DNA of 64,000 bases from a virus: the IMG/VR virus record IMGVR_UViG_3300010400_000005, positions 1 through 64,000 of that record; one strand, 5' to 3'. The notes below the pieces were generated by a model, which saw nothing but the letters and a program-made list of their open reading frames with translations, made no database searches and was not told the DNA's origin. Below, one piece after another: positions 7,860 to 39,296 of this stretch (position 1 is its first letter; each line of letters opens with the position of its first letter). Made by a program: the position numbers and the translations under genes.

Positions 7860-8942
7860 ATGTCTTTAACTTTTGCTGATTTAAAAGCGAAGTTGGCAGG
7901 AGCTTTGGATATTCTTCCTCCAGCTATGTTAGGAGATTTAGTAAATGAAGCTCTTTCTGATATCTATAAATCTAATGAGTGGGGATTTTTAACTAAGAAA
8001 GATATAATTAGAACTCCAGCGCTTATTAATACTGGAACAGCAAGTGTTACTAAATATAGTGAAATTGTTACTTTAGATAGTGTAGCTTCAGCAGTAATTG
8101 TTGCTCTTAATGAAAATGATGTTCCTTTAATAGAGCGACAATTTAGAAATGCTTCAGCTTCCGCAAATACGGGCAATTCTTTCTCATATAATATAATTGC
8201 TTTTGATACTACAGATGAAACCGCAGTAACTCTTACATTAGATCAACCTTATTGGGATGAAACTAATACTGCGCTTAGTTATCAAATTGTAAAACAGTTC
8301 TATAATCCTCCCTTTATTACAAACACAAGCGATGATGAAGTAATTGATTTTAAGTTTTGGAAGTATTTCATAAATTTAAAGTTGAATAGAAGATTAATTC
8401 TAACTACAACTTTAAATGTATTAAATAATTTCGATCCTTCGCGGCGCTATCTTGACGATCCTCGACATGTGATTCCTAATCCTCCCTCTTCTGACGAAGA
8501 TTTTCCAAAGTTTGAATTATATCCAGTTCCGAAGTTTGAGAGAATTTATCAAGTTATCTATCAGAGAAAAGGGTTTAGATTAGTTAAAGAGAAAGATGTA
8601 ATTCCACAATCTTTAGATCCAGAATTAATAAGAATTCGCGCAGAATATTGTGGATATAAATGGGCGCTTGCTAATATACATAAGTATCCTGAATTAAAAG
8701 GAAGTTCTGGAAGATTTCAGAATCTCATGGCGCTTTGCATGAACCCCAATGATGAAGGTGCTTATCCTAAATTATTAGCAAGGCAAATTAAATTAGATGA
8801 AGAAAACTATCCAAAAGCCTATTTCGGCGATTACATGAGAATGCCTTACTTTGATTCTTATATAGGAAATTGGCCTTATTTAAACGAATATGAAGGAAGT
8901 GGATTTAATTCACTTTCTAATGTTGTAATTATAGATTTTTAG
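7860..8942 (+). CDS. head-tail connector (adaptor-like) protein
   Basis: 360 residues. The N-terminus (LTFADLKAKLAGALDI, then GDLVNEALSDIYKSNEWGFL) is the helical opening seen in many podovirus adaptor or tail tubular A-like proteins that dock on the portal. The C-terminal half contains an ordered helical region (PELIRIRAEYCGYKWALANIH) followed by an aromatic-rich tail. The start is preceded by GGGGGAGGCAAT. A second protein of similar build lies at 18421. Confidence 0.6.
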   Translation: MSLTFADLKAKLAGALDILPPAMLGDLVNEALSDIYKSNEWGFLTKKDIIRTPALINTGTASVTKYSEIVTLDSVASAVIVALNENDVPLIERQFRNASASANTGNSFSYNIIAFDTTDETAVTLTLDQPYWDETNTALSYQIVKQFYNPPFITNTSDDEVIDFKFWKYFINLKLNRRLILTTTLNVLNNFDPSRRYLDDPRHVIPNPPSSDEDFPKFELYPVPKFERIYQVIYQRKGFRLVKEKDVIPQSLDPELIRIRAEYCGYKWALANIHKYPELKGSSGRFQNLMALCMNPNDEGAYPKLLARQIKLDEENYPKAYFGDYMRMPYFDSYIGNWPYLNEYEGSGFNSLSNVVIIDF

Positions 8943-9410: not shown

Positions 9411-11225
9411 ATGAAAAATAGAACAGTAGCTTTCCTTTTCTTATTTCTTGCTCTTAGCTGCATCTTTATTTTGAGAAGTTCAAAAGCTGATGTAGTTAAG
9501 AGCAAGTATTTTAATTATGTTGAGAAGGGTGCAAGAGTTGTAAAGACTTCTCCTTCTACTCAATATAAGTTAATGGAAACTTATCCGCAAGCTACTGTGA
9601 CTGTTTACGAAGCTGGTACATTAACACTTGCAAGTTTATGGGTGGATAGGGATGGCCTTGTAATAAAAGCAAATCCATTTACTGCTGATACAGATTCTTT
9701 TTACTATTTCTATGTAGATTGTGGAAAGTACGATATTAAATTTAGTGGAACTGGAATAACTTCACCTTATAGTTATGGTGATATTTTTATTTGTTCCTCA
9801 TTTTCTGATAATGCTTTAACTTTTAATGTAGGAACAAGTGGAACTGATTTTAATGTTTCTCAAGTTGGATCTACTGTAACTTATAATCTACCAGATGCAA
9901 GTTTATTAAATAGAGGCGCTGTTACTATACTAGATCAGAGCTTTAATGGAAATAAAACATTTGATGATAATGTAATAATAGATTCTGGAAATTTGCAATT
10001 CACTGGTTCAACTTCTGGAAGAATCACAATTCAACCAGCTAGTATTGCAGGTACTTATACTTTAACATTACCAGTAGATGATGGAACCTCTAATCAAGTC
10101 CTACAAACAGATGGAAATGGAATTTTAAGTTGGGCTACTGTTAGTGGTGGCGGAAGTAGTGGAACTGTCACTGACTTTTCTGCTGGAAATTTATCTCCAT
10201 TATTTACAACTTCTGTAGCAAATTCTACAACAACTCCAGCTTTAACTTTTAATTTGTCAAATGTAGCGGCCAATACTTATTTTGGTAATAACACTGGCAG
10301 TTCAGCCGCACCATCTTTCATAACACTATCTGCAACTTCTCCAATTGTAATTTCACAAGGAGTTGGAACTACTACTCTATCTTGTCCTACTTGTGGTGGT
10401 GGGACTTTAATTAATCCTACTGATAATAGATTTCCTTATAGATCAAATGCAACTACATTTTTAGATTCTCCATTATGGCGCGAAGATGCAAATACTGCAA
10501 TTTTAAGATCAACTTTAGGATCAGGTCCGGGTTCAACTCAGATTTTTGTAGTTGCAAGAGAATATACATCTAGCTCTAGTTGGCATGGATTGTCAATGAA
10601 TTGCAATAGTACGAATTGTAATCTTGCATTAATTAATAATTCTGGAAACTTAGTAGCACCAGAATTAAATATAGGTGGTGGAGATAAAATTACGTTTTAT
10701 TCTGGCGGTGGACAGGGATGGCAATTTACTACAGCAAGAGATTTCATTCCAAGTGGCTCAAATGGAGCTTTTAGTATTGGAGATGTTGGACATGCTGTAA
10801 ATAAGTTATGGATGAATAAGCAGATTAAATATGTAAATGTAAACGATCTTGCAACAAATTTACCTTGGATCGATCACGTTCAAACTTGGAATGATGCTTG
10901 TGCTGGTTGTGTTACTTTTACTGGATTTAAATCAAACATAACAGATACATCTAGCAATGCTGCATCATTGCTAATGGATTTACAAGTTGGTGGAGTTAGT
11001 AAGTTTAAAATAGATAAGAGTGGAAATGTGACAATAGCAGGATCTACTAATGTAACTTCTCATTGTTATGCAGCGAATGTTTGTGATTTTTTCGGTAGTG
11101 GAAGTCCTGAAACTGTGCTTTCTGCTAATGTTGGCTCAACTTATAGAAGAACAGATGGTGGAGCTAATGCTACATTTTATGTGAAAGAATCTGGTACTGG
11201 TAATACAGGTTGGGCTCCCAAATAA
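9411..11225 (+). CDS. exported tail-fibre-like protein 1
   Basis: 604 residues. The N-terminus is a Sec-type signal peptide: MKNR, a hydrophobic run (TVAFLFLFLALSCIFIL), then RSSKA before Asp as a likely cleavage site. Next is a beta domain seen in phage tail proteins (residues about 45-130), then fibre-type repeats (VGTSGTDFNVSQVGSTVTYNL; DDGTSNQVLQTDGNGILSW) and a C-terminal receptor-type end (VGSTYRRTDGGANATFYVKESG) known from phage fibre proteins. A middle module (about 445-540) is shared with the protein at 12997. A signal peptide on a fibre-like protein is unusual, because virion parts normally assemble in the cytoplasm. It could instead be a secreted or surface protein of the infected cell. 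Confidence 0.75.
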   Translation: MKNRTVAFLFLFLALSCIFILRSSKADVVKSKYFNYVEKGARVVKTSPSTQYKLMETYPQATVTVYEAGTLTLASLWVDRDGLVIKANPFTADTDSFYYFYVDCGKYDIKFSGTGITSPYSYGDIFICSSFSDNALTFNVGTSGTDFNVSQVGSTVTYNLPDASLLNRGAVTILDQSFNGNKTFDDNVIIDSGNLQFTGSTSGRITIQPASIAGTYTLTLPVDDGTSNQVLQTDGNGILSWATVSGGGSSGTVTDFSAGNLSPLFTTSVANSTTTPALTFNLSNVAANTYFGNNTGSSAAPSFITLSATSPIVISQGVGTTTLSCPTCGGGTLINPTDNRFPYRSNATTFLDSPLWREDANTAILRSTLGSGPGSTQIFVVAREYTSSSSWHGLSMNCNSTNCNLALINNSGNLVAPELNIGGGDKITFYSGGGQGWQFTTARDFIPSGSNGAFSIGDVGHAVNKLWMNKQIKYVNVNDLATNLPWIDHVQTWNDACAGCVTFTGFKSNITDTSSNAASLLMDLQVGGVSKFKIDKSGNVTIAGSTNVTSHCYAANVCDFFGSGSPETVLSANVGSTYRRTDGGANATFYVKESGTGNTGWAPK

Positions 11226-11237
11226 ATATCAAAACTT

Positions 11238-11681
11238 ATGAAATCTTGCATAAAATGTAACATTAGAGAAGTTTATGGAGCTAGATATTCATATTGTAAA
11301 GAATGTTAAGCTGAGATTGCTAGGAACTGGAGAGCGGTTAATAGAAATTATATAAGGAAAGTTAAGAAAATAAAATATGCCTCATTGACACCAGATCAAA
11401 AATGGGAAGGACATCTATGGCGACGATATGGATTGACAATTAAGCGTTATAGAAAGTTAGAAGAAGAACAAGGTGGAGTTTGTGCAATTTGCAGTGAGCA
11501 AAGCATTAGATTAAGATTATCAGTTGATCATTGTCATAATACTGGAAAAATTAGAGGATTGTTGTGTGAACGTTGTAATACTTTACTTGGTAGAATTAAA
11601 GATAATCCAATGATTTTACTTTCTGCAATTATTTATTTGGAAGATAATGGAATAAAGATTACAGAGGCAATATCTGAATAA
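11238..11681 (+). pseudogene. endonuclease VII-like HNH gene with in-frame stop
   Basis: From ATG 11238 the frame gives a Cys-rich start (MKSCIKC, then YCKEC), then TAA at 11307-11309, and then continues in the same frame to 11681. The part from 11385 (TTG codon, 98 residues) has the full recombination endonuclease VII/HNH pattern: CAIC, SVDHCHNTGKIRGLLC, ERCNTLLG and a YLED end. The normal N-terminal zinc ribbon is cut off by the stop, which replaces the residue just after CKEC. A single A-to-T change of AAA would explain it. No Shine-Dalgarno sequence precedes the TTG. Such genes are often free-standing mobile elements; this one sits between two fibre genes. It may be inactive, or a shorter protein may be made. 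Confidence 0.7.
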
Positions 11682-11689
11682 AAATTATT

Positions 11690-12991
11690 ATGAAAATAAA
11701 AATAGTTGCTATCTTAATATTATTAAGTATTTCTGCATTAGCCTTTCAAACTTCACCTTATGCGCGGCGAATTCGACCATTTTCATCAACTCCAAGTAGT
11801 TGTCAGGAAAATGAAATTGGTTATAATATGACTGCTCATACTCTACATATTTGTAAAAATTCTGGATATGTAGAATTGACAACTGGAAGCTCAGGTAGTT
11901 TCGCACCAGTAAATGCTACTTATATAACTCAAACAGCAAATGCAACTTTAACTAATGAACAAGCCCTTGCTAGTTTAGCAACTGGAATTTTAAAAAATAC
12001 AACTACGACTGGAATTTTATCTATAGGAACTGCTGGAGATGTTAATTCAATATTACCAACTCAAACTAGCAATAGTGGAAAGTTTTTAACTACAAATGGA
12101 ACTGTTTCTAGTTGGGCTACTATTTCTAGTGGAATAACTAATGCTGCTGGAAATAATGTAATTCCTAAATCTGATGGAACTAATTTAGTTGCAAGTAGAA
12201 TTAGTGATGATGGAACAAATCCAATTAACATAGATCCGAGTGAACTCCCAAGTCCATTGTTAAATATTGGAAGATCCGGAATTGTTGCTACTGGAATATT
12301 TCAAGTTTATGGAACAAGTGGAGATTTTACTACTGGTAATCCAGCAGTTTCTATTCAAGCAGAAACTAACTTAGGAGATGATGATGGGCAAGTAAGAGCA
12401 TTGAAGGTTAGAGCTTTATCATTAAATGGTGGTGACTTAGTTCCCATTGGGGATGTTGTTGGCGGAGACTTTGATGCTAGTGCAGCTAAGAATAGTTCAG
12501 CAGTTTATGCAGTAGTAACGAGTGCTTCAGCAAGTGGAGCTATCACTGTTACTAATATGTGGAGCTTATTAGTTAGTGGTAATATATCTGGTGGAGCAAC
12601 TGTTACTAATAATTATGGAATAGAAGTGCAAGATATCAGTGGTGGTACAAATAATTGGGCAATTAAAACTGGAGTTGGAAGAGTTAGATTTAGCGATGTT
12701 TTAAGCTTAGGTGGAGATTTACAATTAACTAAAACTATAACAGGTAGTGGGACAACTGGTGAACAAACCATTAATAAAAGTTCTGGTTCTGTAAATTTTG
12801 CTGCTGGAGCAACTTCTTTAGTTGTTACAAATTCTTTAGTAACTACTGGTTCAATTGTTCATTGTACAGTTGGTGCCAATGATACAACTTTCAAATCTGC
12901 TCAATGTGTTGCTGGATCTGGAATCTTCACTATTTTTTCTAATGCTGCTGCTACCGATGAAACTAGAGTTAACTTTTTAGTAACTAATTAA
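11690..12991 (+). CDS. exported fibre-like protein 2
   Basis: 433 residues. The signal peptide is MKIKIVAILILLSISALAFQ. It is followed by a module with two cysteines bracketing ENEIGYNMTAHTLHI, shared with the protein at 14761. The body is rich in Gly, Ser, Thr and Asn and beta-prone. The C-terminal about 85 residues (TGEQTINKSSGSVNFAAG to RVNFLVTN) are homologous to the end of the protein at 12997. The gene starts eight bases after the broken HNH gene. Likely a trimeric fibre or surface adhesin; export is inferred from the N-terminus. Confidence 0.7.
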   Translation: MKIKIVAILILLSISALAFQTSPYARRIRPFSSTPSSCQENEIGYNMTAHTLHICKNSGYVELTTGSSGSFAPVNATYITQTANATLTNEQALASLATGILKNTTTTGILSIGTAGDVNSILPTQTSNSGKFLTTNGTVSSWATISSGITNAAGNNVIPKSDGTNLVASRISDDGTNPINIDPSELPSPLLNIGRSGIVATGIFQVYGTSGDFTTGNPAVSIQAETNLGDDDGQVRALKVRALSLNGGDLVPIGDVVGGDFDASAAKNSSAVYAVVTSASASGAITVTNMWSLLVSGNISGGATVTNNYGIEVQDISGGTNNWAIKTGVGRVRFSDVLSLGGDLQLTKTITGSGTTGEQTINKSSGSVNFAAGATSLVVTNSLVTTGSIVHCTVGANDTTFKSAQCVAGSGIFTIFSNAAATDETRVNFLVTN

Positions 12992-12996
12992 ATAAA

Positions 12997-14457
12997 ATGA
13001 AAATTAAATCTTTGTCAATTTTTGCTATTGGAATAATTATTTATTCATTATTCTTATTTCTTTGTTTAGATAACAATCTGACAGCAGAAGCGTTTGCTCA
13101 ATCAGATTCATGTACTGATGGACAAGTACTTGTTATTGATACAATTAATAAAAGATATAAATGCATGGCTATATCTGCTGGAGGATTAGGTTCTGGCAAC
13201 ATTAACATGACAGTAGCTAATGCTTCTTCTGTAGGAACAACTACTGGATTATTAGCAAAATTAACAGGGGCGCCATCTACAGTTAGAAATGCAGAAACTA
13301 CAGATACAGAAAATGCTATTGGAGTTTGTACTTCTGGTTGTGGAACAACGGGAGATGCAACTATAGCAATTGCTGGACAAGTAAATTGTCAATTTGATGG
13401 AAGTACAACTGCTGGCAATTATGTGGTAATTTCAGCAACTTCTGCTGGAAAATGTCACGATAATGGAAGCTCTTTTCCAAATGATAAAGCTGCTTATGGA
13501 AGAGTTTTAACTACAAACGTAGGTGCTGGAACTTATGCAATGACTTTAATGACTCCTGATATTGCTTTTCAAAATGCTGGAAATGGTAAAAGTAGACCAG
13601 GAGGCTCTAATGGACAGTATCAATTTAATGATAGTAACTCATTTAATGGTGGGCCACTAATTCGAGAAAGTGCTAATGTAGTTGCGCAAAGAAATGGAGC
13701 AAGTGGACAACAGTTTAATATCTATAGAGTTTTCAATAATGTATCCAGTTTTGAAAGATTACATTTAGGTTGGGATGGATCTAATTATGGAATTTACGTA
13801 GATAATCAAGCTGGAACTGTTGGAACTGCTGAATTAGCAATTGGCGGCAATCCTATTATCTTCTATACAAATGGTAGCAATAGATGGTCTATAGGAACTA
13901 CTGGACATTTTACTCCAACTGGTTCAAATGGTGGATTTAATATAGGAGATAGTGGACACAGAATTGGTCAGTTGTTTATGTATAAGCAGCTTGACTTTAG
14001 TAATGTAAATGATGCAACTGCTAGTGAGCCTTTTATTACTCATGCAAGAGTATGGAATGCTACTGGTGTAACAATGCATAATTTTACATCTAATGTAACA
14101 AATACAGCAAGTGCTGCTGCTTCTACATTATTTGAATGGCAAGTAGGCGGAACTAATAAATTTGCAATGAATATTGGTGGATTACCAATATTAGATCAAA
14201 CAATAACTACTGGTGGAACTACAGGAGACCAAACAATTAACAAAGCTGCTGGAACAGTGAATGTTGCTGCTGCTGGAACAACTGTTACTGTAACTAATAG
14301 TTTAGTTACTACTTCTTCCACCATTTATGTTTCTCCTAGAACTAATGATTCTACGTGTGCATTTAAAAATGCAGTTCCAGCTTCAGGGAGTTTTACAATA
14401 AATTTAACTGCTGGTTGCACAGCCGAAACGAGCTTTGGATTTTTAGTTATTAATTGA
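12997..14457 (+). CDS. exported fibre-like protein 3
   Basis: 486 residues. The signal peptide is long (MKIKSLSIFAIGIIIYSLFLFLCL) with a probable cut near AEAFAQ. A two-cysteine module follows (SCTDGQVLVIDTINKRYKCM). Residues about 305-395 match a module of the protein at 9411 (FNIGDSGH, then NVND, then WNAT, then WQVGGTNKF), and the C-terminus (TGDQTINKAAGTVNVAAAG to FGFLVIN) matches the protein at 11690. The gene is thus a mosaic of its neighbours, the pattern expected of recombining receptor-binding genes. Five bases separate it from the previous stop. Confidence 0.7.
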   Translation: MKIKSLSIFAIGIIIYSLFLFLCLDNNLTAEAFAQSDSCTDGQVLVIDTINKRYKCMAISAGGLGSGNINMTVANASSVGTTTGLLAKLTGAPSTVRNAETTDTENAIGVCTSGCGTTGDATIAIAGQVNCQFDGSTTAGNYVVISATSAGKCHDNGSSFPNDKAAYGRVLTTNVGAGTYAMTLMTPDIAFQNAGNGKSRPGGSNGQYQFNDSNSFNGGPLIRESANVVAQRNGASGQQFNIYRVFNNVSSFERLHLGWDGSNYGIYVDNQAGTVGTAELAIGGNPIIFYTNGSNRWSIGTTGHFTPTGSNGGFNIGDSGHRIGQLFMYKQLDFSNVNDATASEPFITHARVWNATGVTMHNFTSNVTNTASAAASTLFEWQVGGTNKFAMNIGGLPILDQTITTGGTTGDQTINKAAGTVNVAAAGTTVTVTNSLVTTSSTIYVSPRTNDSTCAFKNAVPASGSFTINLTAGCTAETSFGFLVIN

Positions 14458-14476
14458 GTAAATGGAGTAAATTATT

Positions 14477-14758
14477 ATGCCTTATGAATTAGATATATCT
14501 TCTGAAACTACAAAAGAAGCAAGTGATTTATTGGCAAATCAAGCATTAATTGTAGTTAATGCAACTACTAACACTGCAAAACTAATTGCAAAAGATTCTG
14601 CTGGAGATGCAATTGAAGCTAATTTTATGCCTGCTGCTGTAAGTTTTCTTGCTGATCCAGTCGGTGCTGTGACTGATCAAGATGACGAAGCGAGAGCAGC
14701 AATAATTGCTATTCGAGATAGAATGATTACATTGGGATTAATGGAAGCTGAGGCTTAG
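14477..14758 (+). CDS. small fibre-associated protein
   Basis: 93 residues with no signal peptide, in contrast to its neighbours. The C-terminal segment (TDQDDEARAAIIAIRDRMITLG) resembles the short trimerising helix of phage head-fibre-like proteins. The start follows AATGGAGTAAATTATT. Probably a virion or fibre accessory protein; the precise role is unknown. Confidence 0.55.
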   Translation: MPYELDISSETTKEASDLLANQALIVVNATTNTAKLIAKDSAGDAIEANFMPAAVSFLADPVGAVTDQDDEARAAIIAIRDRMITLGLMEAEA

Positions 14759-14760
14759 TT

Positions 14761-16386
14761 ATGAAGTTTAAATTATTTATTTTATTTATGTTTTTTATTT
14801 GCGTATCTATATTTACCATAGACTCCTATTATGCGCAGCCAAATAAAAGTTCTCCAGCCAGAAGTATATTTGCAGTTAGTGTTAATCCACTAGCATGTAA
14901 GGAAAATGAAATCTTTTATAATATGACTACGCATCAATTTCTAGTATGCACTGGACTTAATACCTTATCAGTAGTCTCATTTGGTGGAGATGGTGGAGGT
15001 TCATTAGCTAGTTTAAATGGACTTTCTACTAGTATTCAATCTTTTACTACTGGAACATCTGGTAGTAATTTTAATATTTCCTCTAGTGGGAGTACACATA
15101 CTTTTAATATTCCAACAGCTAGTGGTGTTAATCGAGGATTGCTTTCTAGTTCTGATTGGCTTATATTTAATAATAAGCAACCAGTATTAGGATTTACGCC
15201 TGAAAATATAGCTAATAAAAATGCTACAAATGGCTATGTAGGATTATCTAGTGGAAAAATTACTAACAGTCAAATGTCAGAAGTTTTAGCAATTACTGAT
15301 CTTTCTGATTATTCTATAGTATCAGGAACTGGAAACACAGCAATTCGTGCAACTTTTACTTCGCTAACAACTAATGATTGTATATTGTGGAATGGAACTA
15401 ATTGGGTTAATTCAAACACATGTGCATCTGGCGCAACTGGAATTACTTCCTTAAATACACTGAGTGCTGCATCACAAATTTTTACTATTGGAACTAGCGG
15501 GAGTGACTTTAATATTTCTAGCTCTAGCTCAACTCATACATTTAATCTTCCATCCGCTTCTGCATCTAATAGAGGACTTTTAACTTCTACTGATTGGTCT
15601 ACTTTTAATAATAAACAGGTAGCTTTGGGATTTACTCCTGAAAATTCTGCAAATAAGAATGCAACTAATGGATATGTTGGTCTCTCATCTGGCAAAGTTG
15701 CTTTAGTACAATTACAAGAAATATTAGGAATTGCGGATTTAACTGATTTTACTGGAAAGTCAGGAAATGGAACAACTGCAATTGGTGCAACTATAACCTC
15801 TATTCAAACAAATGATTGTTTAATTTGGGATGGAAGTAAATGGATAAACTCTGCTTCTTGTGGTAGCGGTGGTGGTGGAAGTGGAGATATGATATTAGCA
15901 GGTATTCAAACTGTTACTGGAGCCAAAACATTTGATGCTGCTAAATTAATAGTTGGAACTTCATTATCTATACCAACTATAGTAGCTAACTCTTTTTATA
16001 GAAACACTACAGATGGAAAATTATATGTAGGTGCAAGTAATGGAGCATCTTGGAATGAAATATTAGAAGCTGGAGTATCTGGTCCAATTTCTGTAGCATC
16101 TGGCGGAAATGGGCTAATTGGAAGTGGCTCTAATGTAGCATCAGCTTCTACTATCTCTATATCTGGAAAGATATTTCATGTAACTGGAACAACCACTATT
16201 ACCTCAATAAGTGGTAGTGGAATTTCTGCTGGAACAGAAGTTACATTAATATTTGATGGAATTTTAACTTTTACTGATGGATCTAATCTTAAGCTAAATG
16301 GAAATTTTGTAACTTCTGCTGATGATACAATAACTTTAGTATGGGATGGAAGTACATGGTATGAAACTTCGAGAAGTTCTAATTAG
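14761..16386 (+). CDS. exported fibre-like protein 4 with tandem repeats
   Basis: 541 residues. The signal peptide is MKFKLFILFMFFICVSIFTI, with a likely cut near YYAQ. The two-cysteine module follows (ACKENEIFYNMTTHQFLVC). Residues about 84-221 and 231-367 are two copies of one fibre repeat (TGTSGSNFNISSSGSTHTF, RGLLSSSDW, FNNKQ, GFTPEN, ATNGYVGLSSGK). The C-terminal part contains a fibre linker (GIQTVTGAKTF) and a short beta domain ending in WDGSTWYETSRSSN. Such repeats form shafts in tail fibres. The stop lies 26 bases inside the next gene. Confidence 0.72.
   Translation: MKFKLFILFMFFICVSIFTIDSYYAQPNKSSPARSIFAVSVNPLACKENEIFYNMTTHQFLVCTGLNTLSVVSFGGDGGGSLASLNGLSTSIQSFTTGTSGSNFNISSSGSTHTFNIPTASGVNRGLLSSSDWLIFNNKQPVLGFTPENIANKNATNGYVGLSSGKITNSQMSEVLAITDLSDYSIVSGTGNTAIRATFTSLTTNDCILWNGTNWVNSNTCASGATGITSLNTLSAASQIFTIGTSGSDFNISSSSSTHTFNLPSASASNRGLLTSTDWSTFNNKQVALGFTPENSANKNATNGYVGLSSGKVALVQLQEILGIADLTDFTGKSGNGTTAIGATITSIQTNDCLIWDGSKWINSASCGSGGGGSGDMILAGIQTVTGAKTFDAAKLIVGTSLSIPTIVANSFYRNTTDGKLYVGASNGASWNEILEAGVSGPISVASGGNGLIGSGSNVASASTISISGKIFHVTGTTTITSISGSGISAGTEVTLIFDGILTFTDGSNLKLNGNFVTSADDTITLVWDGSTWYETSRSSN
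15010..15861 (+). repeat. two tandem fibre repeats inside a gene
   Basis: Two units of roughly 410 bases (about 15010-15423 and 15451-15861) encode homologous 137-residue blocks. Shared peptide markers are HTFN, NRGLL, FNNKQ, ATNGYVGLSSGK and a closing TNDC..W segment. The copies are diverged at DNA level, so the duplication is not recent. Confidence 0.7.
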
Positions 16387-18421
16387 TTTTTTCTTAATTA
16401 TTTTATTTACAACATATACTAAGGCTGCACCAGTTCTTACTAATGTAAGCGCAGTAAGAGTATCTGATGTGACAGCAGGTATTAGTTTAACTACAAATAC
16501 AACTAGTTTCTGCTCTGTTGTTTATGGATTAACTACTTCGTATGGCGCACAAACAATTATTGTTCCTACGCATTTTTTTAATGAGCACTTTATAACTTTA
16601 TATGGGTTAGTTCCAAACTCTCTATATCATTATAAAGTTACATGTACAGATGCAAGTACTACTTCTACAACTGATATTGATAGAACTTTTACTACGCAAG
16701 CAGTTGCTACAGTTCCAAGATTACCAATTCCATTAGATCCGAATTTGCCGAATTTATCTGGAGCAACTGTTAAAACAGTTAGAACTAGTGGTGGAAATTA
16801 TACCTTAGATCAGTTACAAACTGCTATAAATGATGCAATTGCTTCCAGTGGAAACAGAATTATAGATGTTGAGGCTGGACAAGTCATATCTGGTAATTTT
16901 ACTATTGGTGTAAAGGTAGATAATTCCTGTATACAGATAAGAAGCTCTAATTATAATAACTTAAGAATAGGAAAGAGAGTAACTCCAACAGATGTTGCGA
17001 ATTTGGTTAGAATTAGAAGTAATAATATAGCAGATCCAGCATTAGCAGTATTTAGAACCGTTGGAGCTAGTAGGTGTACAATTTTTACTGGGATCGAAAT
17101 AACTATAGATCCCTCTATAATTGCTGACGCTCCAGGCGGAACTAGTCAAACTAAACTAGTAATGCTTGGAACAGCAGCAGAAACTTCTCAATCTCAACTT
17201 CCTTCTAATTTTAGATTTGATAGATGTTGGATTCATGGAATTGATCTTAAGAATACAAAAAGAGGTATTTATGTAAATGCAGAAAAAACTGTATTTATTG
17301 ATTCAACTATAGAAAGATTTCAAGATACAAACGGAGATTCTCAAGCAATCTTAATTGGAACTGCTAAGCAATTATTAGTTTGGAATTGTTATGTAAATGG
17401 TGCTGGAGAAAATGTTTTATCTGGTGGTGTTGATCAAACAATAACTGGTTATGCGACTTCTGATTTAGAATTTAGATATTCAGACTTTCCATGGTTATTA
17501 AAGTGGAAATCTAATGATCCTTCTTGGGATGGTAAAGATTGGGTCACTAAGAATAATTTTGAAATAAAAAAAGGTGAAGCAGTTTTAATATTTGCCTGTA
17601 ATTTTGGTCCTTGGTGGGAATCTGAACAAACTGGTGGAACTATTAGTTTTAAAACATCTAATGATGATCCTAATCCAATTGTAATTGCTAAGGATATTTT
17701 AGTTTACCTATCTAGATTTAGAAATGTTGGTGCAGGAATAGTAATTAATGGTTCTAATAATACACTAGAAGAATCTACTGATCATACTAGAAGAATATCT
17801 TTTCTATATGATTTATTTGAAATAGATGGAATTACATTTAATAATGAAGATAGTGGAAATCCTTCCAGTGGAAATATGTCACTTATTTTAACATCATATC
17901 AAGGCGGAGTAAAACATTATCCAGATGATTTTTCAATAGAGCATTGTACATTTGTTAATTCTCGTGGTGGAAATAGAGTAATACACCTATTTGATACTCC
18001 AGCAACAGGAACTTCTTTAGGAAATGGATTTATATTTAGAAATAATATTCTTACATATAATATATTCGGCATAAAAGCTGATGGAACTGCTGAAGGAACA
18101 GCTTCTTTAAATGTTGCTACTGATAGTGCAACTAGAACTTGGAGTAAGAATTTAATTAATGGAAGTTCTACAAACTATCCAACTGATAATACTTATGTTT
18201 CATCAGCAACAGATATTCAGTTTGTTGATTTTAACAATGGATTTTCTGGTGGAAACTTCAAACTAAGAGCTACAAGTCCTGGGAAAAATGCAGCAAGTGA
18301 TGGAACTGATATGGGATATGATAAGGATAGATTAGATAGAGCTATCTCTGGTACAATAAGTGGAAGTTGGTTAGGAAGTATAAGTCAATGTAATTGGAAT
18401 ACAGATCCTGTGTGTAACTAA
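16361..18421 (+). CDS. exported beta-helix protein, possible spike or depolymerase
   Basis: 686 residues from ATG 16361; this start is preferred because it gives a signal peptide (MKLREVLISFFLIILFTTYTK, then AAP) and follows GGAAGTACATGGT. Residues about 25-112 look like a fibronectin III/purple acid phosphatase N-terminal type domain (LYGLVPNSLYHYKVTC). Residues about 150-620 have the repeating Val/Ile/Asn pattern of a right-handed beta-helix, as in pectate lyase-like folds and phage tailspikes. No catalytic residues can be assigned by eye. It could cut a surface polysaccharide, either on the virion or outside the infected cell. Confidence 0.65.
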   Translation: MKLREVLISFFLIILFTTYTKAAPVLTNVSAVRVSDVTAGISLTTNTTSFCSVVYGLTTSYGAQTIIVPTHFFNEHFITLYGLVPNSLYHYKVTCTDASTTSTTDIDRTFTTQAVATVPRLPIPLDPNLPNLSGATVKTVRTSGGNYTLDQLQTAINDAIASSGNRIIDVEAGQVISGNFTIGVKVDNSCIQIRSSNYNNLRIGKRVTPTDVANLVRIRSNNIADPALAVFRTVGASRCTIFTGIEITIDPSIIADAPGGTSQTKLVMLGTAAETSQSQLPSNFRFDRCWIHGIDLKNTKRGIYVNAEKTVFIDSTIERFQDTNGDSQAILIGTAKQLLVWNCYVNGAGENVLSGGVDQTITGYATSDLEFRYSDFPWLLKWKSNDPSWDGKDWVTKNNFEIKKGEAVLIFACNFGPWWESEQTGGTISFKTSNDDPNPIVIAKDILVYLSRFRNVGAGIVINGSNNTLEESTDHTRRISFLYDLFEIDGITFNNEDSGNPSSGNMSLILTSYQGGVKHYPDDFSIEHCTFVNSRGGNRVIHLFDTPATGTSLGNGFIFRNNILTYNIFGIKADGTAEGTASLNVATDSATRTWSKNLINGSSTNYPTDNTYVSSATDIQFVDFNNGFSGGNFKLRATSPGKNAASDGTDMGYDKDRLDRAISGTISGSWLGSISQCNWNTDPVCN

Positions 18422-19776
18422 TGACCTCTCCAAAATTCCAACATACAACTAGGGCAGCTTTTAAGGATCAGTTCTTTAAAAGAGTTGGAGATTTATCTAA
18501 AAGATTTTGGACTGATGATGAAGCCAATTTATTACTAAAGGAAGCTCTGCATACATTTGGCGCAATTGGGCATATTTGGAGAAATCAAATAGAAATTAAA
18601 ACAATTGCTGGACAGAGTTTTTATGATATAACAACTGATTTGTTTGCTGAGCAAGAGCTAACCTCATTCAATTTAGATTATCAATTTATTCTAGATTGTA
18701 TTAATTTTCATCTAATAGAAAGTATTGGCACAGGAAGTCCAATAAGTGAAATTACAAGTTTAGATGAAATATTAAAATTTGCTCGTAATCGCGTGAATCA
18801 ATTTCAATTTCAAACAGGTCTTATATTGAGTAAGAAGTTATTCAATATGAATCCTCCTAATGATAATAAAGTAGTAATAGACGACGAAGTGTTAGATGTA
18901 GTAAGAGCAGCTTATGTTAATCTAGATGAACTTACAAATCCTGATGAAATATTTCCATTAGGTAGAGAAGATGAAAGTAATGTAGGATATTTTAATAGAA
19001 ATGCATTTAATGAAACTGTAGAAGTTCCTGAATTTTATACAGCAGTTCTTGGTAATTTAAATACTATAAAAATCTATCCACTTCCAGCGAATCTTGGCAA
19101 GTTAGAGATTATATCAGTAAATGGAATTCCTTCTACTACAACACTAGCTTTAGATACTAAAATAGGAATTCCTGATAACTTAGTTTCTTATATAAAATGG
19201 GGAGTTTTGGCAGATATTTATTCAAAAGATGGAATTGCTTACAATCCTTCAATGTCTGCTTATTGTGAAGAAAGATGGAGTGAGGGATTAATTGTTGGTA
19301 AGAATTATACTTCAGTATTAGAAGCTAAATTAAATGGGCTTCCATTACTTATAGATTCTATAGTAAGCGCTGATAACAATCAATATGGATGGCAAAATAA
19401 TATAGATCAACCATCTTTATTACTATCTGCTGGATATAACTTATTTGCAGTTAATTGTATTCCCGATGATATTTACTCAATATTAATGTTTGCAGTTACT
19501 AATGCTTATATCCCAATTGATGATGATGATTTCATAGATGTTAAGATGGAATATATAGAGCCATTATTAGATTATTGTATTCACTTGGCGAGTATAAAAA
19601 ATGGCGCTGAAGCAGTACAAATAACAACCGACGAGAGAAATAATTTTATAAGAACAGGAATTAAAAACAATCTTAGACTTATGAAGAATGGATATTCAGT
19701 AGAAACTATGTTTAAACGAACAAAAAGACAAGAGGAAGATAATTCTATTAGGGTTAAAGAAGAAATGGTTGTGTAA
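18421..19776 (+). CDS. second connector/adaptor-like tail protein
   Basis: 451 residues, with ATG overlapping the previous TAA by one base. The N-terminus (FKDQFFKRVGDLSKRFWTDDEANLLLKEALHTFGAIGHIWRN has the adaptor pattern) is followed by a beta part and two helical segments. The build resembles the protein at 7860, and the gene directly precedes a nozzle-like protein, as with tail tubular A/B pairs. The role in the tail is inferred from that pairing. Confidence 0.5.
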   Translation: MTSPKFQHTTRAAFKDQFFKRVGDLSKRFWTDDEANLLLKEALHTFGAIGHIWRNQIEIKTIAGQSFYDITTDLFAEQELTSFNLDYQFILDCINFHLIESIGTGSPISEITSLDEILKFARNRVNQFQFQTGLILSKKLFNMNPPNDNKVVIDDEVLDVVRAAYVNLDELTNPDEIFPLGREDESNVGYFNRNAFNETVEVPEFYTAVLGNLNTIKIYPLPANLGKLEIISVNGIPSTTTLALDTKIGIPDNLVSYIKWGVLADIYSKDGIAYNPSMSAYCEERWSEGLIVGKNYTSVLEAKLNGLPLLIDSIVSADNNQYGWQNNIDQPSLLLSAGYNLFAVNCIPDDIYSILMFAVTNAYIPIDDDDFIDVKMEYIEPLLDYCIHLASIKNGAEAVQITTDERNNFIRTGIKNNLRLMKNGYSVETMFKRTKRQEEDNSIRVKEEMVV

Positions 19777-24805: not shown

Positions 24806-25207
24806 ATGTCAAGCATACAATACGAATTTTTTACTGGCGAAGAAGCAAACTTATTAGAATTACATAAGTTAGATGAAAGTATAAGAGTTCCTTGGCCGCC
24901 AACTTCTCACATTTTATATGCTATTAATGAAAATAAAGATATAATTGGCCGAATGGGCTTACTACAACTTCCTCATATAGAAGGAACTTGGATTAGGGAA
25001 GATTATAGAAATGGAACTATTGCTGTTAGAATGATTTCTAAAGTAGAAAACTTATTAGTAGAAAACGATAGAACAGCAGCCTTTGCTTTTATACAAACTA
25101 AAGATGAAGATATCCAAAATTATATGGAACGTCTTGGTTATATAGAGCTCCCACTTAAAGTTTATGTAAAAGCATTAATTGATGATAAGAAACAGAAAGT
25201 AGCTTAA
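24806..25207 (+). CDS. GNAT-like acetyltransferase-fold protein
   Basis: 133 residues. The order of segments (ENKDIIGRMGLL, then WIREDYRNGTIAVRMISKVENLL, then AFAFIQTKDEDIQNYMERLGYIELPLKVYVK) follows a small GNAT fold: beta hairpin, helix after the acetyl-CoA strand, and a C-terminal strand. The canonical Q/RxxGxG/A loop is not clear (R-D-Y-R-N-G-T-I), so it may be inactive or use another substrate. GNAT-like genes recur beside ejection proteins in podoviruses. Confidence 0.55.
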   Translation: MSSIQYEFFTGEEANLLELHKLDESIRVPWPPTSHILYAINENKDIIGRMGLLQLPHIEGTWIREDYRNGTIAVRMISKVENLLVENDRTAAFAFIQTKDEDIQNYMERLGYIELPLKVYVKALIDDKKQKVA

Positions 25208-27301: not shown

Positions 27302-30300
27302 ATGCCTACAATTCTTCCCTCAAATACAAGTGATGATCTTGATCTCTCAGTTTTAGATTCATTTAATTTCAATGAACTAGAGCAGCAAGATCAAACTCCT
27401 GCCAAAAAGAAGAGCGAAACTGAATCAGAATCTCTAGATTTATCTTCTTTAGATAATTTATTTCCAAAAGAGATTCAACCATTATCCTTACCACCTTCCA
27501 AAATTACTTCTGGATTTGGAAAGAGAAAAGATCCATATGGACTTGGCGTTAAGTTCCATAATGGAGTTGATATTCCAATTGCTCTTAATACTCCCATTAA
27601 CTCTCTAGGAAAAGGCACTGTTATAGAAGTTGGAGATAGTGGAAATAAAAGCTATGGAAGATTTGTAAAAGTAGATTATGGTGGTGGATTAGTTTTAACT
27701 TATGGACATTTGAATAAAGTAGGAGTTGAAGCTGGAGATAGAATTTCCAGTGAAGCAGTAGTTGGTTTATCTGGATCTACTGGAAGATCAAAAGGTCCAC
27801 ATCTTCATATAAAAGCAGAACTTAATGGTAAACCTGTAAATCCTGTAGATTATTTTGGAAGCATACATGATGTTGCTATTGGTGCTCTTTCAACAGATGA
27901 TGTTGTTAATGAAGCTAAATTAGATCTTTCTGTACTTGATAATCTTGATGAAAATATAATTAAAGCAGAAGAAAATAAAGAGGAACTGGATTTATCTCCA
28001 GTTGATCAAATTGGTGAATTTAATATTAAAGATTTAAAACCATTAGAAGAGAAACCATTTGTAGATAGAAGAACTATTGAAGAAAAAATTGCTGCTGGTG
28101 CTGCTGCTTTGCATCAACCTAATATTACTGGCGCAAATCCAAATCAATTAACTGGAGATAGAATTACTACTATTATTCCAGTTAAAGGAGTTAATCGACC
28201 AGATATTAATACAATAACTGATTATTGGTTAGGCGCAATTGATCCCAATTACTCTCAAGTCAATCAAGAATATCGTGCGCAAACAGGTAGAAATCTAATT
28301 GAATTTACAGGCAGTGCAGAACCTATAGGAGATCATAAATATAAATTAACTGCGCGAATGACTAAGGGTGCGACTGATTTAATTAATGCTTACATAGAAG
28401 GAAGGAGTAAAGGCGGACCACAAGCTGGATGGGAAGCAGCTTATTTAAAATCACAACAAATAAAAAGAGAAGAGCAAGCTGTTAGAAAACAAATAGAAGC
28501 TGCTAAGCAAGCCAATGTAAATGTATTGGCAGAAAAGCATCCTTATATAAAAACTGCTTTTAATATTTTATCTCCAGCAACTTTGATTGATGAAAATGCA
28601 ATTAAATCTGGAATCAGCCAAGCTGGTCTTGCTGATGCACAACTAATTCATAATCTTAGAATGCTTCCTGAAGCTTTATATACTTTATATAGATATGGTG
28701 GCGATTCGCAACAATATCAAGATTTAATTGATAAAGATAGAGAAATACAGAAGAATCTATTCGGCTATCAGAACGAAATCAAACAACCAGAAAGTCTAAG
28801 TGAGAAAGTTGGCGCTGGAATTGTTACTGGTGCTATATCATTTCCAAAATATGCACTTGCTGGAAGTTTAGGCATTGGTGCATTACCTACTCTAACTTAT
28901 GTAGAAAATCTTCATAGAGGAAATATAGAAGCAGCTAAGGCAGCCTTGCCTATGGCATTAATGGTGGGAGCTACACATGGATTAGATAGTTTCTTTAATA
29001 AAGGAACTTCTCTTTATATTACTAAAGAGAAAAATGGAGTTCCTTATATTGAAAGAATAGAAGTTAGTAGGGGACAAGGTAGTGCAGCACCTTTTACAAA
29101 GTCTAAAGTTGAATATAATACATCATTATCTGAATGGATGCAACATTTAAGAAACTATTCTGATGATACAGTTATAGATGCATTTGCTTCTGCTCCACCT
29201 ACTTCTATAGAGTCAATTTCTCCATTAACGCGACAATTCTTAATGAGAGGAACTAATGCTATCTTAGGTGGAGGAACTACCTTAGTTGAAGGTGGAAATG
29301 CTCAAGATGTTGCAAGTAATTTTATTGTAGGATTAACTTTCCCGGTTGGTAAATACAAGGTTGGAGGATTAGAAGAAGGAAGATTTGGATTAATTCCTTA
29401 TGTTCCTTCTAAAGAAATTATTAATGCTGCGCCTTTACAATTAGGACAAAAGAAGGTTTTAATTCCTGTTACTAAGGGTGGAGATATAATTGAAAGTGAC
29501 AGGAAAACTTTATCTATAGATCCATTGGCTAGTAAATTAGAGAAAGGATTTCAAGCTAGAAGTGAAGGGCAGACTCTTTACTTGAATTTAGATACTGCTG
29601 CGCTTAATTTGCTCGATCTAAGACGTGCTGTTGCAGAAAAGAAATTGGGCGGAGCTAATGTTAAAGATGCACTTAATCGGCAAATTTCTGCATTTGCTGC
29701 TATTTCTTTACTAGAGAAACAGATTCCTAAAGAGATAATAGATTATTTTGAGAAGAATGAAGATCTCATTAGAGCAGGATTGAGAACAAATTGGGAGGCT
29801 GTTAGAGCTAAAGAAGAATACTTAGGAAATAAAGAAGTAACTCAAGTTCCAGTTAATCCTGATCAAATTAAAGAAAATCCAAGCATTAATCTAAAGGAAA
29901 CTCCTGTCCAAAGATTAATGCGAGTTATTCAAAGAGTTGGAAACATTAGAGATAATCCAGTTGCAGTAAGAGAAGCTGCTAAGGAAGTATTTGGTAATTC
30001 TGGTGAAATGAATACTTGGCAAACACCAGATAGAACTTTACTTGTATTTGATCATCTACTTAATACTAAGTCAAAGGGAGGAAATACTTTAAGATCAGGG
30101 TTGGATTTAGCTGCTATTGGTAAAGATTTAGTGGAAGGTACTAAAGCAATTTGGGATTTAACGCAAATTTCTACTTTTTATCTAGAGGATTTTTATCATA
30201 GAAAAGTAGAAGCTAATGTAAGTGAATTTGCTAATAAATTAAGAATTGGTTTAGGTGATATTGTTAAGAATTTTACAGACGAAGATTTTCAAATTTTATT

Positions 30301-33300
30301 TCAAAAAGGAAAAGAATATTTAGATAGTAATGTAGCCGATCCATTTTTCTCTAGAATGAAGCAAGATGCTGTAGAGAAATTGCCTAATAGAATGACTGCT
30401 GAGCAAGCAAGAAATGTTTTATTACAGCACAAAGATGAACTTGAATGGACAAGTGGACTTGAGGAATTTTTAGAGAGTAATAAGGATAAGAAAATTAGTA
30501 AGCAAGATTTAGTTGATATTATTCAGAGAGGCCAAGTTAGGGTTGCTGAAAGTATAGCAGAAGAAAATCATCCTGAATTTGTTAAGATTGATCAGCAGTT
30601 AAAAGTCTTAGCTAGTGAGAGAGAAGAAGCTACAAGGAATCATGATGAAAAATTAGCTGCTAAAATAACTGCTCAAATGTCAGATTTATGGAATGCACGT
30701 AAAAAGTTTGATGAAAATGTTCCTAAATATTCTTTAAATTCTTATCCATACGAAAAACTAGAGCTTGCTGGAGCAAAGAATTCTAAAGAAGTCAAACTAA
30801 TATCTCCACCAATGAATACTTTGGAATTCTTAGCAGATCACCCAGAAATTCCAATTGATGTTACAAAATATAAATCTCCACATTGGGATGAAGGAAATAT
30901 AGTCGCACATTATCGAGCTAATGATAGAATTTCTACTGATAATAAAAGGATTTATTTTGGAGAGGAATTTCAAAGTGATTGGAACCATGATATTAGAGAG
31001 AAAGGATTAAGATTATCTCCACAAGAACAAATTAGATATAATGAATTAAATGAGAAATATCAAAGAGTTGAACTTACAAAAGAAGAAACAGAAGAATATG
31101 CACGATTTAATGATAGACGATCATCATTAAGAGGCGCAGTAGAACCAAATCCTTTCATGCAACATAATTGGAAGGAATTAGTTCTTAAAAGATTCTTAAG
31201 AGATGCTGCTATTGCTAAAGATGAAAATGGAAATTATAAATATGATGCTATAGGATGGACTACTGCGAGACAGCAACAGGAGAGATATGGTGGAATTTTA
31301 GAAGGAAAATATTTTAATTGGAAGAAAAATGCTGATGGTACTTATTCATTTGATATGGGAATGCCTGGACATGGAAATTATCAATCTCCACACGAACTTC
31401 AAAATATTTCTCTAGAAAGATTTGCAGAACTTACAACTAAAGAAGCAGCGCAAGAAGTTAGGGATCAGGAAGCTAAACAACAAGCTGAATTAGAAGCATT
31501 AACTAAACAAAGAGATATAATTCGTGGAGTTCCATCTACTGATAATTACGAATTACCAATTGATGTTGAAGTCAAAAACAAGAGTAAATTCAAAGGTCAA
31601 TTCTCTCTCAAAGAAGCAGTAGAACTTCGTTCAGGAATTGGAAAATATTCTGATTATGATGTTGCTTATAAGAATATTGTAAGTAAAATTGGAAAGAGAT
31701 TTGGGGCGAAATATAGTGAGAGAGAAATAATTACTGGCACTAAAACAGGTAAGGAAAGTTTCTGGAGCTTAGGTAGAGCATTAGAAGCTTTAGAAAATGG
31801 TGAGGAAGTATATGGATATACTAAAGATGGAGAATGGAAACAGATAACAGAAAGGCAATCTTTTGATAACTATACTTTATTTGCAACTGAAAAAGAAATA
31901 GCAAAAGAGAAGGTACATTCTCTAGAAATAACTCCTTCAATGCGTGAATCTTTATCTAAAGAAGGACTTCCTTTATATGGAACTGGTGGAAGTGAAATTC
32001 TTAAATATGCAGAAACTGGAGTTAGAAATAGAATTGTAACTGCTGATGCATTTAATTCTGCTAGAGAGGATCTTATTAATAAATTATATGGAGAATTATA
32101 TCATGGTTCACGATACGAGTTTGACATAGCTCATGCAACTGGACGACACCCTGAAGGGTGGACTTATTTTACTAATAATTTAGAATATGCAAAAAGAATA
32201 ACGCAGATAAAACAAACCTCTGCTAACTCTAGTGCTATCTATGCAGATATACCTATAGTATATAAGGCAGAAAAACCACCAATAAAAGCACCTTTAGACT
32301 TGAGAGATTTGAATATATCATTTACTGGAAAAGAATTTATTACCCTTTTAGAAAATAGAAGTATTCATTTGTCTGAGAACTTAAAGAATCAAATGACAAA
32401 ATTTGATTCTAAGGATGATATGATAACTTGGTTGCGTGATCCTAATCTTAGAATGGAACTGCGCGAACAGGCAACTAAGAATAATTATGATGGAATAATA
32501 ATTAAAGATTCTATAGGTGATATAGTTGGCGATTCTTATATAGCGTTTAATCCAACTCCAGTTTCTAAGCATTCAACTATTTTTAATTCTGGCTTAAATC
32601 CAGATGCTTTCATAGATCAAATTAAGTTATTATATTCTGGAATTAGAGATCTAACTGAATTTACAAATAGCTTAGTTGAAAGATATGGCGAACCAATTCG
32701 TCAACATGCAGAAGATTTCTATTTCGCTATTAAACAACAAGCTGCTGATTTTAAAGAAAGGCTTTCTATTCCCATTGAAAGATGGTCTGATAATTTAAAA
32801 CAAGATGAAAATTCTCCAGCTTGGCAGATTCGAGAGTTTATTAAAGACGAAGAAGGTGCGCTTAAACTTCCTAAGTTTCTACGTAAAGATAAAATTCCTG
32901 AACTAGAGAATTATTTAAAAGATCCTGAGAGTCATCAAAAGCCAATTGGATTAGATTATAGAGCATGGCTTAGAGGCGTTGCATTGGCGCAAATTTCTGA
33001 TAAGTTTGGTAGTGTCTATGATACAATGCGAACTTTGCAGAGAGTTGTTGCAGGATATGAAACTAATACTTTGAACGAATTGATGGTTGCTAAGAAACTA
33101 TTAAAAACTAAAGGATTAGATAAACAAGTAGCAGAAGCAATTTATCAAGGCAATGAATGGATAGATCCCGCAACTGGAGATCATAAAGGAAAAATTTGGA
33201 CAGATCCAGAACTAATCGCTAATTTTGGCCTTAATCTACAGCAAGTTGATGCTTATAAGAATATTCGTGCAGCTATTGATAATGTTTTAAATTTAAGATT

Positions 33301-36894: not shown

Positions 36895-37182
36895 ATGTGG
36901 AACAAAGAACCAACCGTTATTATAAATGGTTTATCTGAACTACTAAGACAGATTATTCCTTTGTTAGTTTTAATGGGAGTAATTAAACTTTCACCAGAGA
37001 AGCAAGCTGGATTAATTTCTATTATAGGATTAATTCTAGCTTTTATCTCAACCACTTTGCTTAGATCACAAGTAGTTTCAACTGGTATTGCAAATTCACA
37101 AATACAAACAGGTATTGATGCTTCACCTAGAGCTACTGTGAAAGAAGTAATAGCCATTGAAAAGGAGAATAGAGAAGGATGA
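36895..37182 (+). CDS. holin-like small membrane protein
   Basis: 95 residues with two hydrophobic segments (IIPLLVLMGVIKL, 20-32, and AGLISIIGLILAFISTTLL, 38-56) and a charged tail ending EKENREG. Size and layout fit a class II holin, which opens the inner membrane at lysis. The start follows GGAGGAATTTTTAAAT and the stop overlaps the next ATG. The call is by topology only. Confidence 0.5.
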   Translation: MWNKEPTVIINGLSELLRQIIPLLVLMGVIKLSPEKQAGLISIIGLILAFISTTLLRSQVVSTGIANSQIQTGIDASPRATVKEVIAIEKENREG

Positions 37183-37643
37183 TTACTAAAAGAAAATTTA
37201 TCTCTTTAATTTTATTGTTGGTAATTGCATATGGAGGCTTGGGTGCAGGTAGTTGTGATTCCAGCAAAACGCGACAATTAACAAAAGCAGAGGACACAAT
37301 TGCTGAGAGTGAACTAAGAATTGCTACTTTTCTAACTGAAGCAAAAGCTAGTGGTACCCTATCACAAAATGACATTAATGCAATTAAGCCATTTCTAATT
37401 GCAGTTAATGATGGAAATAGGGAAGCTATTGTTATTACGAAAGAAATACTAGCAAATCCTACTGTAGACAAACAACAGCAATTACTAGCTGTTGTTTCTA
37501 CTATCTCTAACAATCTTGTTAGATTGAATAATGAGGGAAGTTTAAGGATAAAAGATCCCGCTAAACGTCTTGCATTTAGTGGATTTGTAATTGCATTACA
37601 AGGTGCAGTTTCATCGGCAGTTGTTATTCTTGTAAAGAAATGA
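37179..37643 (+). CDS. exported protein or lipoprotein, possible outer-membrane spanin
   Basis: 154 residues. The N-terminus (MITKRKFISLILLLVIAYGGLGAGSC) is a signal peptide with a weak lipobox (AGSC). The mature part is helical and charged and ends in a hydrophobic stretch (LAFSGFVIALQGAVSSAVVILVKK), which is unusual for a spanin. It overlaps the holin-like gene by four bases. Possible o-spanin partner of the gene at 36131; otherwise an envelope protein of unknown role. Confidence 0.5.
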   Translation: MITKRKFISLILLLVIAYGGLGAGSCDSSKTRQLTKAEDTIAESELRIATFLTEAKASGTLSQNDINAIKPFLIAVNDGNREAIVITKEILANPTVDKQQQLLAVVSTISNNLVRLNNEGSLRIKDPAKRLAFSGFVIALQGAVSSAVVILVKK

Positions 37644-39125: not shown

Positions 39126-39296
39126 CTACTTTTGTTCTACGTAATCCCACTTTTGAGTATTTATAATTAGTTTAATTACATATTTATTGTCAATTTTATT
39201 TTTAAAAACTAATTCTCCACGAGAACCAATTTCCATTTTATCTGCACTTATTGTTCTAGGTGTCCTGTTTTTAATTCCAACTTCATATACTGTCAT
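39126..39296 (-). CDS. 56-residue hypothetical protein
   Basis: MTVYEVGIKNRTPRTISADK start, then beta segments (GELVFKNKIDNKYVIKLII). The ATG overlaps the stop of the polymerase gene by four bases, and AAGGAACTTAAGAT inside the polymerase end serves as ribosome site. Not recognised. Confidence 0.6.
   Translation of the reverse strand: MTVYEVGIKNRTPRTISADKMEIGSRGELVFKNKIDNKYVIKLIINTQKWDYVEQK

Follow-up and report, generated by a model that had tools for sequence, protein, structure and literature searches.

A cassette of five fibre and spike genes in a podovirus-like virus is predicted to encode proteins with Sec signal peptides (SPs), and these proteins are probably genuine virion spikes, forming an adsorption apparatus that matures outside the cytoplasm and docks on particles at or after lysis. 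The window analysed here (64,000 nucleotides) is part of the 71,351-base IMG/VR virus record IMGVR_UViG_3300010400_000005. Sec export of the cassette proteins is nearly certain, and the exported spikes would then be added to particles. Support comes from the SPs themselves, their conservation in relatives, a cysteine signature in the mature proteins, the homology of the first domain of spike 1 to known docking domains, and the single copy of that domain.

Genome context of the fibre cassette

This virus is related to two podoviruses in culture on Tunturiibacter (Acidobacteriota), Tunturi 1 and Tunturi 2. Among 50,697 phage records, only these two matched the major capsid protein (gene at 5129), at 25% identity, and relatives of the large virion protein at 19776 point to them as well. 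The genomes share the order capsid, ttpA-like protein (gp11), fibre cassette, structural protein (gp30) and large virion protein (gp31) (Table 1), and the spike 1 gene lies in the tail and adsorption module, between the ttpA-like gene at 7860 and the structural genes at 18421 and 19776, as in Tunturi 1. Tunturi 1 and 2 differ from the window in GC content (56% versus 33%) and, with the exception of the docking domain, in the contents of the cassette. A small endonuclease VII gene (11385, PF02945) and a gene for a 93-residue protein (14477) also sit among the cassette genes. A genome collection searched for relatives of the docking domain and of the ttpA-like protein, as possible prophages that could indicate a host, contained none.

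Table 1. Cassette genes, their predicted parts and the flanking marker genes (window coordinates; a slash marks the predicted cleavage site)
Feature	Coordinates	Strand	Description
ttpA-like tail protein, upstream of cassette	7860..8942	+	Synteny marker; related to Tunturi gp11
Spike/fibre 1, 604 aa	9411..11225	+	SP, tailspike head-binding (docking) domain, and fibre body with 4 further close Cys pairs
SP of spike 1	9411..9488	+	MKNRTVAFLFLFLALSCIFILRSSKA/DVV; rule test
Docking domain of spike 1	9489..9824	+	Most likely assignment; profile matches 9vyg/7eeq; AlphaFold2 model pLDDT 90, same top three in Foldseek
Fibre 2, 433 aa	11690..12991	+	SP, Cys-loop N-terminal domain (SPYARRIRP...C-x16-C) and fibre body; mature protein 4 Cys
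SP of fibre 2	11690..11743	+	MKIKIVAILILLSISALA/FQT; rule test
Fibre 3, 486 aa	12997..14457	+	SP and Cys-loop N-terminus; mature protein 8 Cys
SP of fibre 3	12997..13098	+	Probable site AFA/QSD; alternative LTA/EAF at 13086; chosen by reading the sequence
Fibre 4, 541 aa	14761..16386	+	SP (weakest of the five) and Cys-loop N-terminus resembling fibre 2
SP of fibre 4	14761..14835	+	Uncertain site, putatively YYA/QPN or VS/IFT
Fibre 5, 686 aa	16361..18421	+	SP, fibronectin-III-like module and probable right-handed beta-helix; mature protein 10 Cys
SP of fibre 5	16361..16426	+	MKLREVLISFFLIILFTTYTKA/APV; rule test
Structural protein, downstream of cassette	18421..19776	+	Related to Tunturi gp30; phrog_399 structural protein
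Large virion protein, 1309 aa	19776..23705	+	Relative of Tunturi gp31: 24% identity over 99%, E 1e-88
Short fibre-like protein, 205 aa	24061..24678	+	No SP, no Cys; internal contrast

Signal peptides of the cassette proteins

N-termini were scored with a rule-based test (not SignalP) that requires a charged n-region, a hydrophobic core of at least 9 residues, agreement with the -3/-1 rule and a polar follow-up. A preliminary description of this DNA had placed five genes with SPs at 9411, 11690, 12997, 14761 and 16361; all five exist as placed, and all score above the threshold. The scores are 4.96 for 11690 (ALA/FQ), 4.49 for 16361 (TKA/AP), 4.27 for 9411 (SKA/DV), 3.85 for 12997 (LTA/EA or AFA/QS) and 3.64 for 14761, the weakest. 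Each N-terminus has a positively charged n-region and a long core rich in isoleucine, leucine and phenylalanine, and four of the five have an acceptable -3/-1 cleavage motif, the site in 14761 being non-canonical.

Random shuffling of N-termini gave 85 passes in 4920 (1.7%), and shuffles of the five cassette N-termini themselves passed at rates of 6.5-15%; at these latter rates, five consecutive passes by chance would have a probability of about 1e-5. Among the remaining window genes of at least 250 codons, the sole pass is a weak one at 19776 (3.2). The short fibre-like protein at 24061 fails the test, so that the contrast drawn earlier between this gene and the cassette stands. In the stretches analysed of T7, N4, P22, crAss001 and Tunturi 3, 4 and 5, none of the virion proteins of at least 250 residues, fibres and spikes included, has an SP, and the sole large control protein accepted by the test was P22 GtrC, a membrane protein. 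A trait common to all Acidobacteriota phages can be rejected, given that the stretches of Tunturi 3, 4 and 5 hold no large gene with an SP.

Two other readings of the N-termini were considered and rejected. Lipoprotein SPs cleaved by signal peptidase II would carry a lipobox ([LVI][ASTVI][GAS]C), and reading the five N-termini by eye found none at the cleavage sites; the SPs at 9411, 12997 and 14761 contain cysteines that fall within the hydrophobic core and outside any such motif. Nor are the SPs an artefact of start choice, because no other ATG makes a sensible start and relatives keep them as SPs. For fibre 5, the best start is the ATG at 16361 and not the mechanical first ATG at 16346.

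Conservation of the signal peptides in relatives

A search of related phages for conserved SPs found them in a close relative (L003), in Tunturi 1 and 2, and in about 30 further soil-virus loci, in each case at the genome position of the window's cassette. In L003 (capsid protein 79% identical to that of the window), the corresponding place is taken by a spike with an SP of its own, and the open reading frame at 15997 begins with a diverged SP followed by the mature start FQTSPYARRI, as at 11690. Between the window and L003, SPs are 35-39% identical and the residues after them 66-83% identical (35% versus 83% for spike 1, over the 104 residues that follow its SP, and 39% versus 66% in the other pair). 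A diverging SP in front of a conserved mature N-terminus is the usual pattern of real SPs.

In Tunturi 1, gp12, gp13, gp14, gp16 and gp17 carry SPs that are identical or almost identical in Tunturi 2; some of these genes are annotated as tail spike, tail fiber or pectin lyase. SPs are nowhere mentioned in the paper describing these phages (PMC11924767), nor does that paper present mass spectrometry of virions. A profile of the ttpA-like protein recruited 43 viral loci, and in 30 loci the 12 kb following the ttpA-like gene hold 115 large genes, 38 of them with an SP, compared with 0 of 119 upstream. The number and content of the SP-bearing genes other than the docking spike vary strongly among relatives.

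A probable virion-docking domain behind the signal peptide of spike 1

Directly after the SP of spike 1 is a domain of about 100 residues with the pattern PxATVTVYxAGTxxLAxLxxDxxGxxxxNPFxADxxxFxxFxxxxGxYDIxFSG. This domain also forms the extreme N-terminus of tailspikes or exopolysaccharide depolymerases without an SP in Serratia, Erwinia and Pseudomonas phages. A 50-member profile of the domain matched the tail-spike chains of cyanopodophage Pan3 (9vyg, E 5e-4), and a smaller profile also matched the 'Tailspike head-binding domain' of Pam1 (7eeq, E 0.003). The top three Foldseek matches of an AlphaFold2 (AF2) model of the window's domain (pLDDT 90) were the entries found by the profiles, with probability 1.00, TM 0.49-0.54 and E 0.018-0.024. 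Because both the profile and the Foldseek matches are podophage tailspikes, this predicted domain is most likely a virion-docking domain, a homologue of the head-binding domains in podophage tailspikes. Of 31 full virus records, 30 contain it only once, including those in which it follows an SP, and therefore the exported spike is the phage's only docking spike.

The other cassette proteins are more varied. Fibres 1, 2 and 3 have body segments in common. The C-terminus of fibre 4 weakly matches a phage depolymerase C-terminal domain (PF25692, E 0.0026, below the cut-off). The putative domains of fibre 5 were read from its sequence, with no Pfam match above the cut-off; a single-sequence fold model has a pLDDT of 33, and a sequence search against the PDB and a search for relatives returned no match.

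Export itself would also be expected if the five proteins never entered virions and instead were secreted or surface proteins that alter the infected cell by masking receptors, excluding superinfection, aggregating cells or cutting exopolysaccharide, with adsorption left to others such as the products of 19776 and 24061. Several SP-bearing proteins per genome have no docking domain, and fibre 5 and Tunturi_2 gp14 resemble polysaccharide-active beta-helix proteins (by sequence and by the annotation 'pectin lyase', respectively). We nevertheless consider this explanation, with the effects it proposes, unlikely. For spike 1 the docking domain speaks against it, as a surface effector would not need one: the first gene has a single-copy homologue of tailspike head-binding domains, so that the phage would be left without another docking spike, and siblings with the same domain and no SP occupy the same genome position. 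The preliminary description had offered both host-altering surface proteins and fibres added to the virion after lysis; the head-binding domain, its N-terminal placement in non-exported relatives and its single copy favour the latter and speak against the former for spike 1. The companion proteins may still be active before lysis, for example as secreted polysaccharide-cutting enzymes.

A division of labour, in which spike 1 joins virions and fibres 2-5 are secreted enzymes or adhesins acting on the host matrix before or at lysis, would fit the restriction of the docking domain to one gene per genome (fibres 2-5 lack it) and the strong differences between relatives in the number and content of the other SP-bearing genes. 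We regard it as less likely still, given the body segments common to fibres 1-3 and the general prevalence in phages of branched fibre assemblies docked via a single anchor.

Cysteine signature suggestive of an oxidizing compartment

Large proteins with and without SPs differ in their cysteines, and these differences do not derive from the SP itself. Mature SP-bearing proteins contain 1.9 Cys per 100 residues, compared with 0.68 in the products of large genes without SPs (p 7e-21), although some proteobacterial tailspikes of the cytoplasmic kind reach 1-2 per 100 residues as well. The count is even in 41 of 52 SP-bearing proteins (p 4e-5) and in 122 of 260 of the others. All five mature proteins of the window have even counts (10, 4, 8, 6 and 10 for genes 1-5), and their cysteines are spaced as near neighbours, to a degree reached in 0 of 10,000 shuffles.

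We identified 52 distinct docking-domain genes, 33 with an SP (one, in L059, assigned by eye) and 19 without. A Cys pair in the docking domain, just after the cleavage site (GWCExG...PxCTV), occurs in 30 of the 33, and both cysteines in 0 of the 19; these SP and Cys counts are drawn from related sequences, and a phylogeny-aware test of the association is powerless because there are only about five changes of SP state on the tree. The window and L003 do not have the common pair and carry other cysteines in their docking domains. From these sequence features, the mature proteins look as if they fold in an oxidizing compartment with paired cysteines, and export looks functional. The suggestion of export made in the preliminary description is thus borne out beyond a single window, by SP conservation and by the cysteine signature.

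Evolutionary history of the signal

Docking-domain forms with and without an SP alternate at one genome position, and one genome (L037) has a form of each kind side by side. Methionine is at position +1 after the predicted cleavage site in 5 of 32 SP-bearing proteins, and the mature start resembles the start of relatives that have no SP (MERAQGFCERGG with an SP beside MEKLQGYVEQGG without). Because this methionine matches the start of those relatives, the sequences suggest that an SP may have been placed in front of an old start codon. The canonical cleavage site missing in 14761 and the ATG exactly at the mature N-terminus in five relatives might instead indicate uncleaved hydrophobic segments with a role inside the virion or at the inner membrane face (e.g. 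membrane-inserting tips), or an internal start giving a cytoplasmic form, but -3/-1 motifs in most of the proteins, even Cys counts, the SP-linked Cys pair and the lack of a clear Shine-Dalgarno-like sequence ahead of the internal ATGs make this very improbable.

Proposed maturation of the adsorption apparatus

We propose that the adsorption apparatus consists of one docking tailspike together with accessory fibres and spikes. Each protein would be synthesized with a Sec SP, pass the inner membrane unfolded and be trimmed by signal peptidase. Folding would then take place in an oxidizing compartment, presumably the periplasm, where Cys pairs could form disulfides. After trimming, spike 1 would begin with its docking domain, just like an ordinary tailspike made in the cytoplasm. 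Heads and tails would be built in the cytoplasm and would encounter the finished spikes only when the envelope ruptures at lysis, at which point docking would occur. It is known from P22 spikes and T4 fibres that such proteins can be added in vitro to particles that are already complete. Fibres 2-5 may join via spike 1, or may act as secreted enzymes or adhesins.

We see an even chance that the same holds for a whole lineage of tailed phages with two-compartment assembly, in which heads and tails are cytoplasmic and all receptor-binding spikes are exported, oxidized, retained outside the cytoplasm and loaded only at lysis. Particles of such phages therefore could not bind before leaving the cell.

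Comparison with known systems

Spike 1 resembles podophage tailspikes (Pam1 7eeq, Pan3 9vyg and the P22 gp9 type) in having a docking domain at the mature N-terminus, a C-terminal fibre or beta-helix body and a gene in the tail module. Those tailspikes have no SP (P22 and the Serratia, Erwinia and Pseudomonas relatives tested) and assemble in the cytoplasm, whereas here the docking domain follows an SP, and a Cys pair has been added to that domain in most relatives. Virion proteins with cleavable SPs are familiar from filamentous phages (pIII and pVIII). Filamentous virions, however, are assembled at the membrane during secretion, whereas tailed phages have cytoplasmic heads and exit by lysis; the usual view of tailed phages is that virion assembly is complete, inside the cytoplasm, before the cell lyses.

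Phage lysis proteins also use host Sec before lysis, including SAR endolysins, SP endolysins (fOg44 lysin) and spanins, as described in two articles (PMC4640515, PMC3765740). They differ from the cassette proteins in serving lysis, in contrast to the structural and adsorption role proposed here. Searches of the open-access literature for SPs in tail fibres returned lysis proteins and one accessory esterase but no exported tail spikes, although a report elsewhere is possible. What appears new is a known spike type with an unrecorded maturation route, with no earlier report found in that literature.

Filters that rely on export signals may wrongly assign genuine phage spikes to the secreted proteins of bacteria. 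Tunturi 1 and 2 are cultured, which makes the idea directly testable. If spikes are exported first, part of morphogenesis would take place outside the cytoplasm, with access to disulfide chemistry that is unavailable to cytoplasmic assembly. If true, this would bear on spike stability in soil, on avoidance of binding to the dying host and on the sharing of spikes between co-infecting phages, such that spikes from one infection could arm the particles of another.

Probable and possible attachment modules, and neighbouring genes

Behind the signal peptide, the fibres encoded at 11690, 12997 and 14761 share an N-terminal C-x16-C module (CxENEIxYNMTxHxxxxC), with which the protein at 15997 of the related virus sequence L003 is also listed; a collagen-like protein with a signal peptide in virus sequence L012 (7699) resembles it. 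This is possibly another attachment module, besides the tailspike head-binding-like docking domain. Of two adjacent spikes in virus sequence L037, one has a signal peptide and the cysteine pair and the other is without a signal peptide; the second has a docking domain split by an insertion, and nonetheless 12 cysteines.

Fibre genes 1 and 2 are separated by an inserted HNH gene, probably a mobile homing-type gene. The acetyltransferase has a counterpart at the corresponding position in the cultured Acidobacteriota podovirus Tunturi 1 (gp34), and the annotation of the control phage Tunturi 3 likewise places one in the virion module. The peptidase-bearing protein contains no cysteine; its probable role is to open peptidoglycan, as a virion protein that is either internal or ejected. 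Adjoining the end of the structural module, the small protein with a signal peptide may be a spanin or other lysis protein.

Features of the window and of related virus sequences
Feature	Location	Details
Neighbouring spikes with docking domain	L037 10972-13101 and 13105-15261	
Endonuclease VII-type HNH gene	window 11385-11681	PF02945, E 4e-25
GNAT-type acetyltransferase	window 24806-25207; L004 (virus sequence) 32875-33216	tail module
M23 peptidase protein	window 27302-35281	2659 aa; domain at N-terminus
Small protein with signal peptide	window 37179-37643	begins MITKRKFISLILLLVIAYGG
Uracil-DNA-glycosylase-like domain, then DNA polymerase A	window 39293-42406	fusion; single 1037-aa ORF
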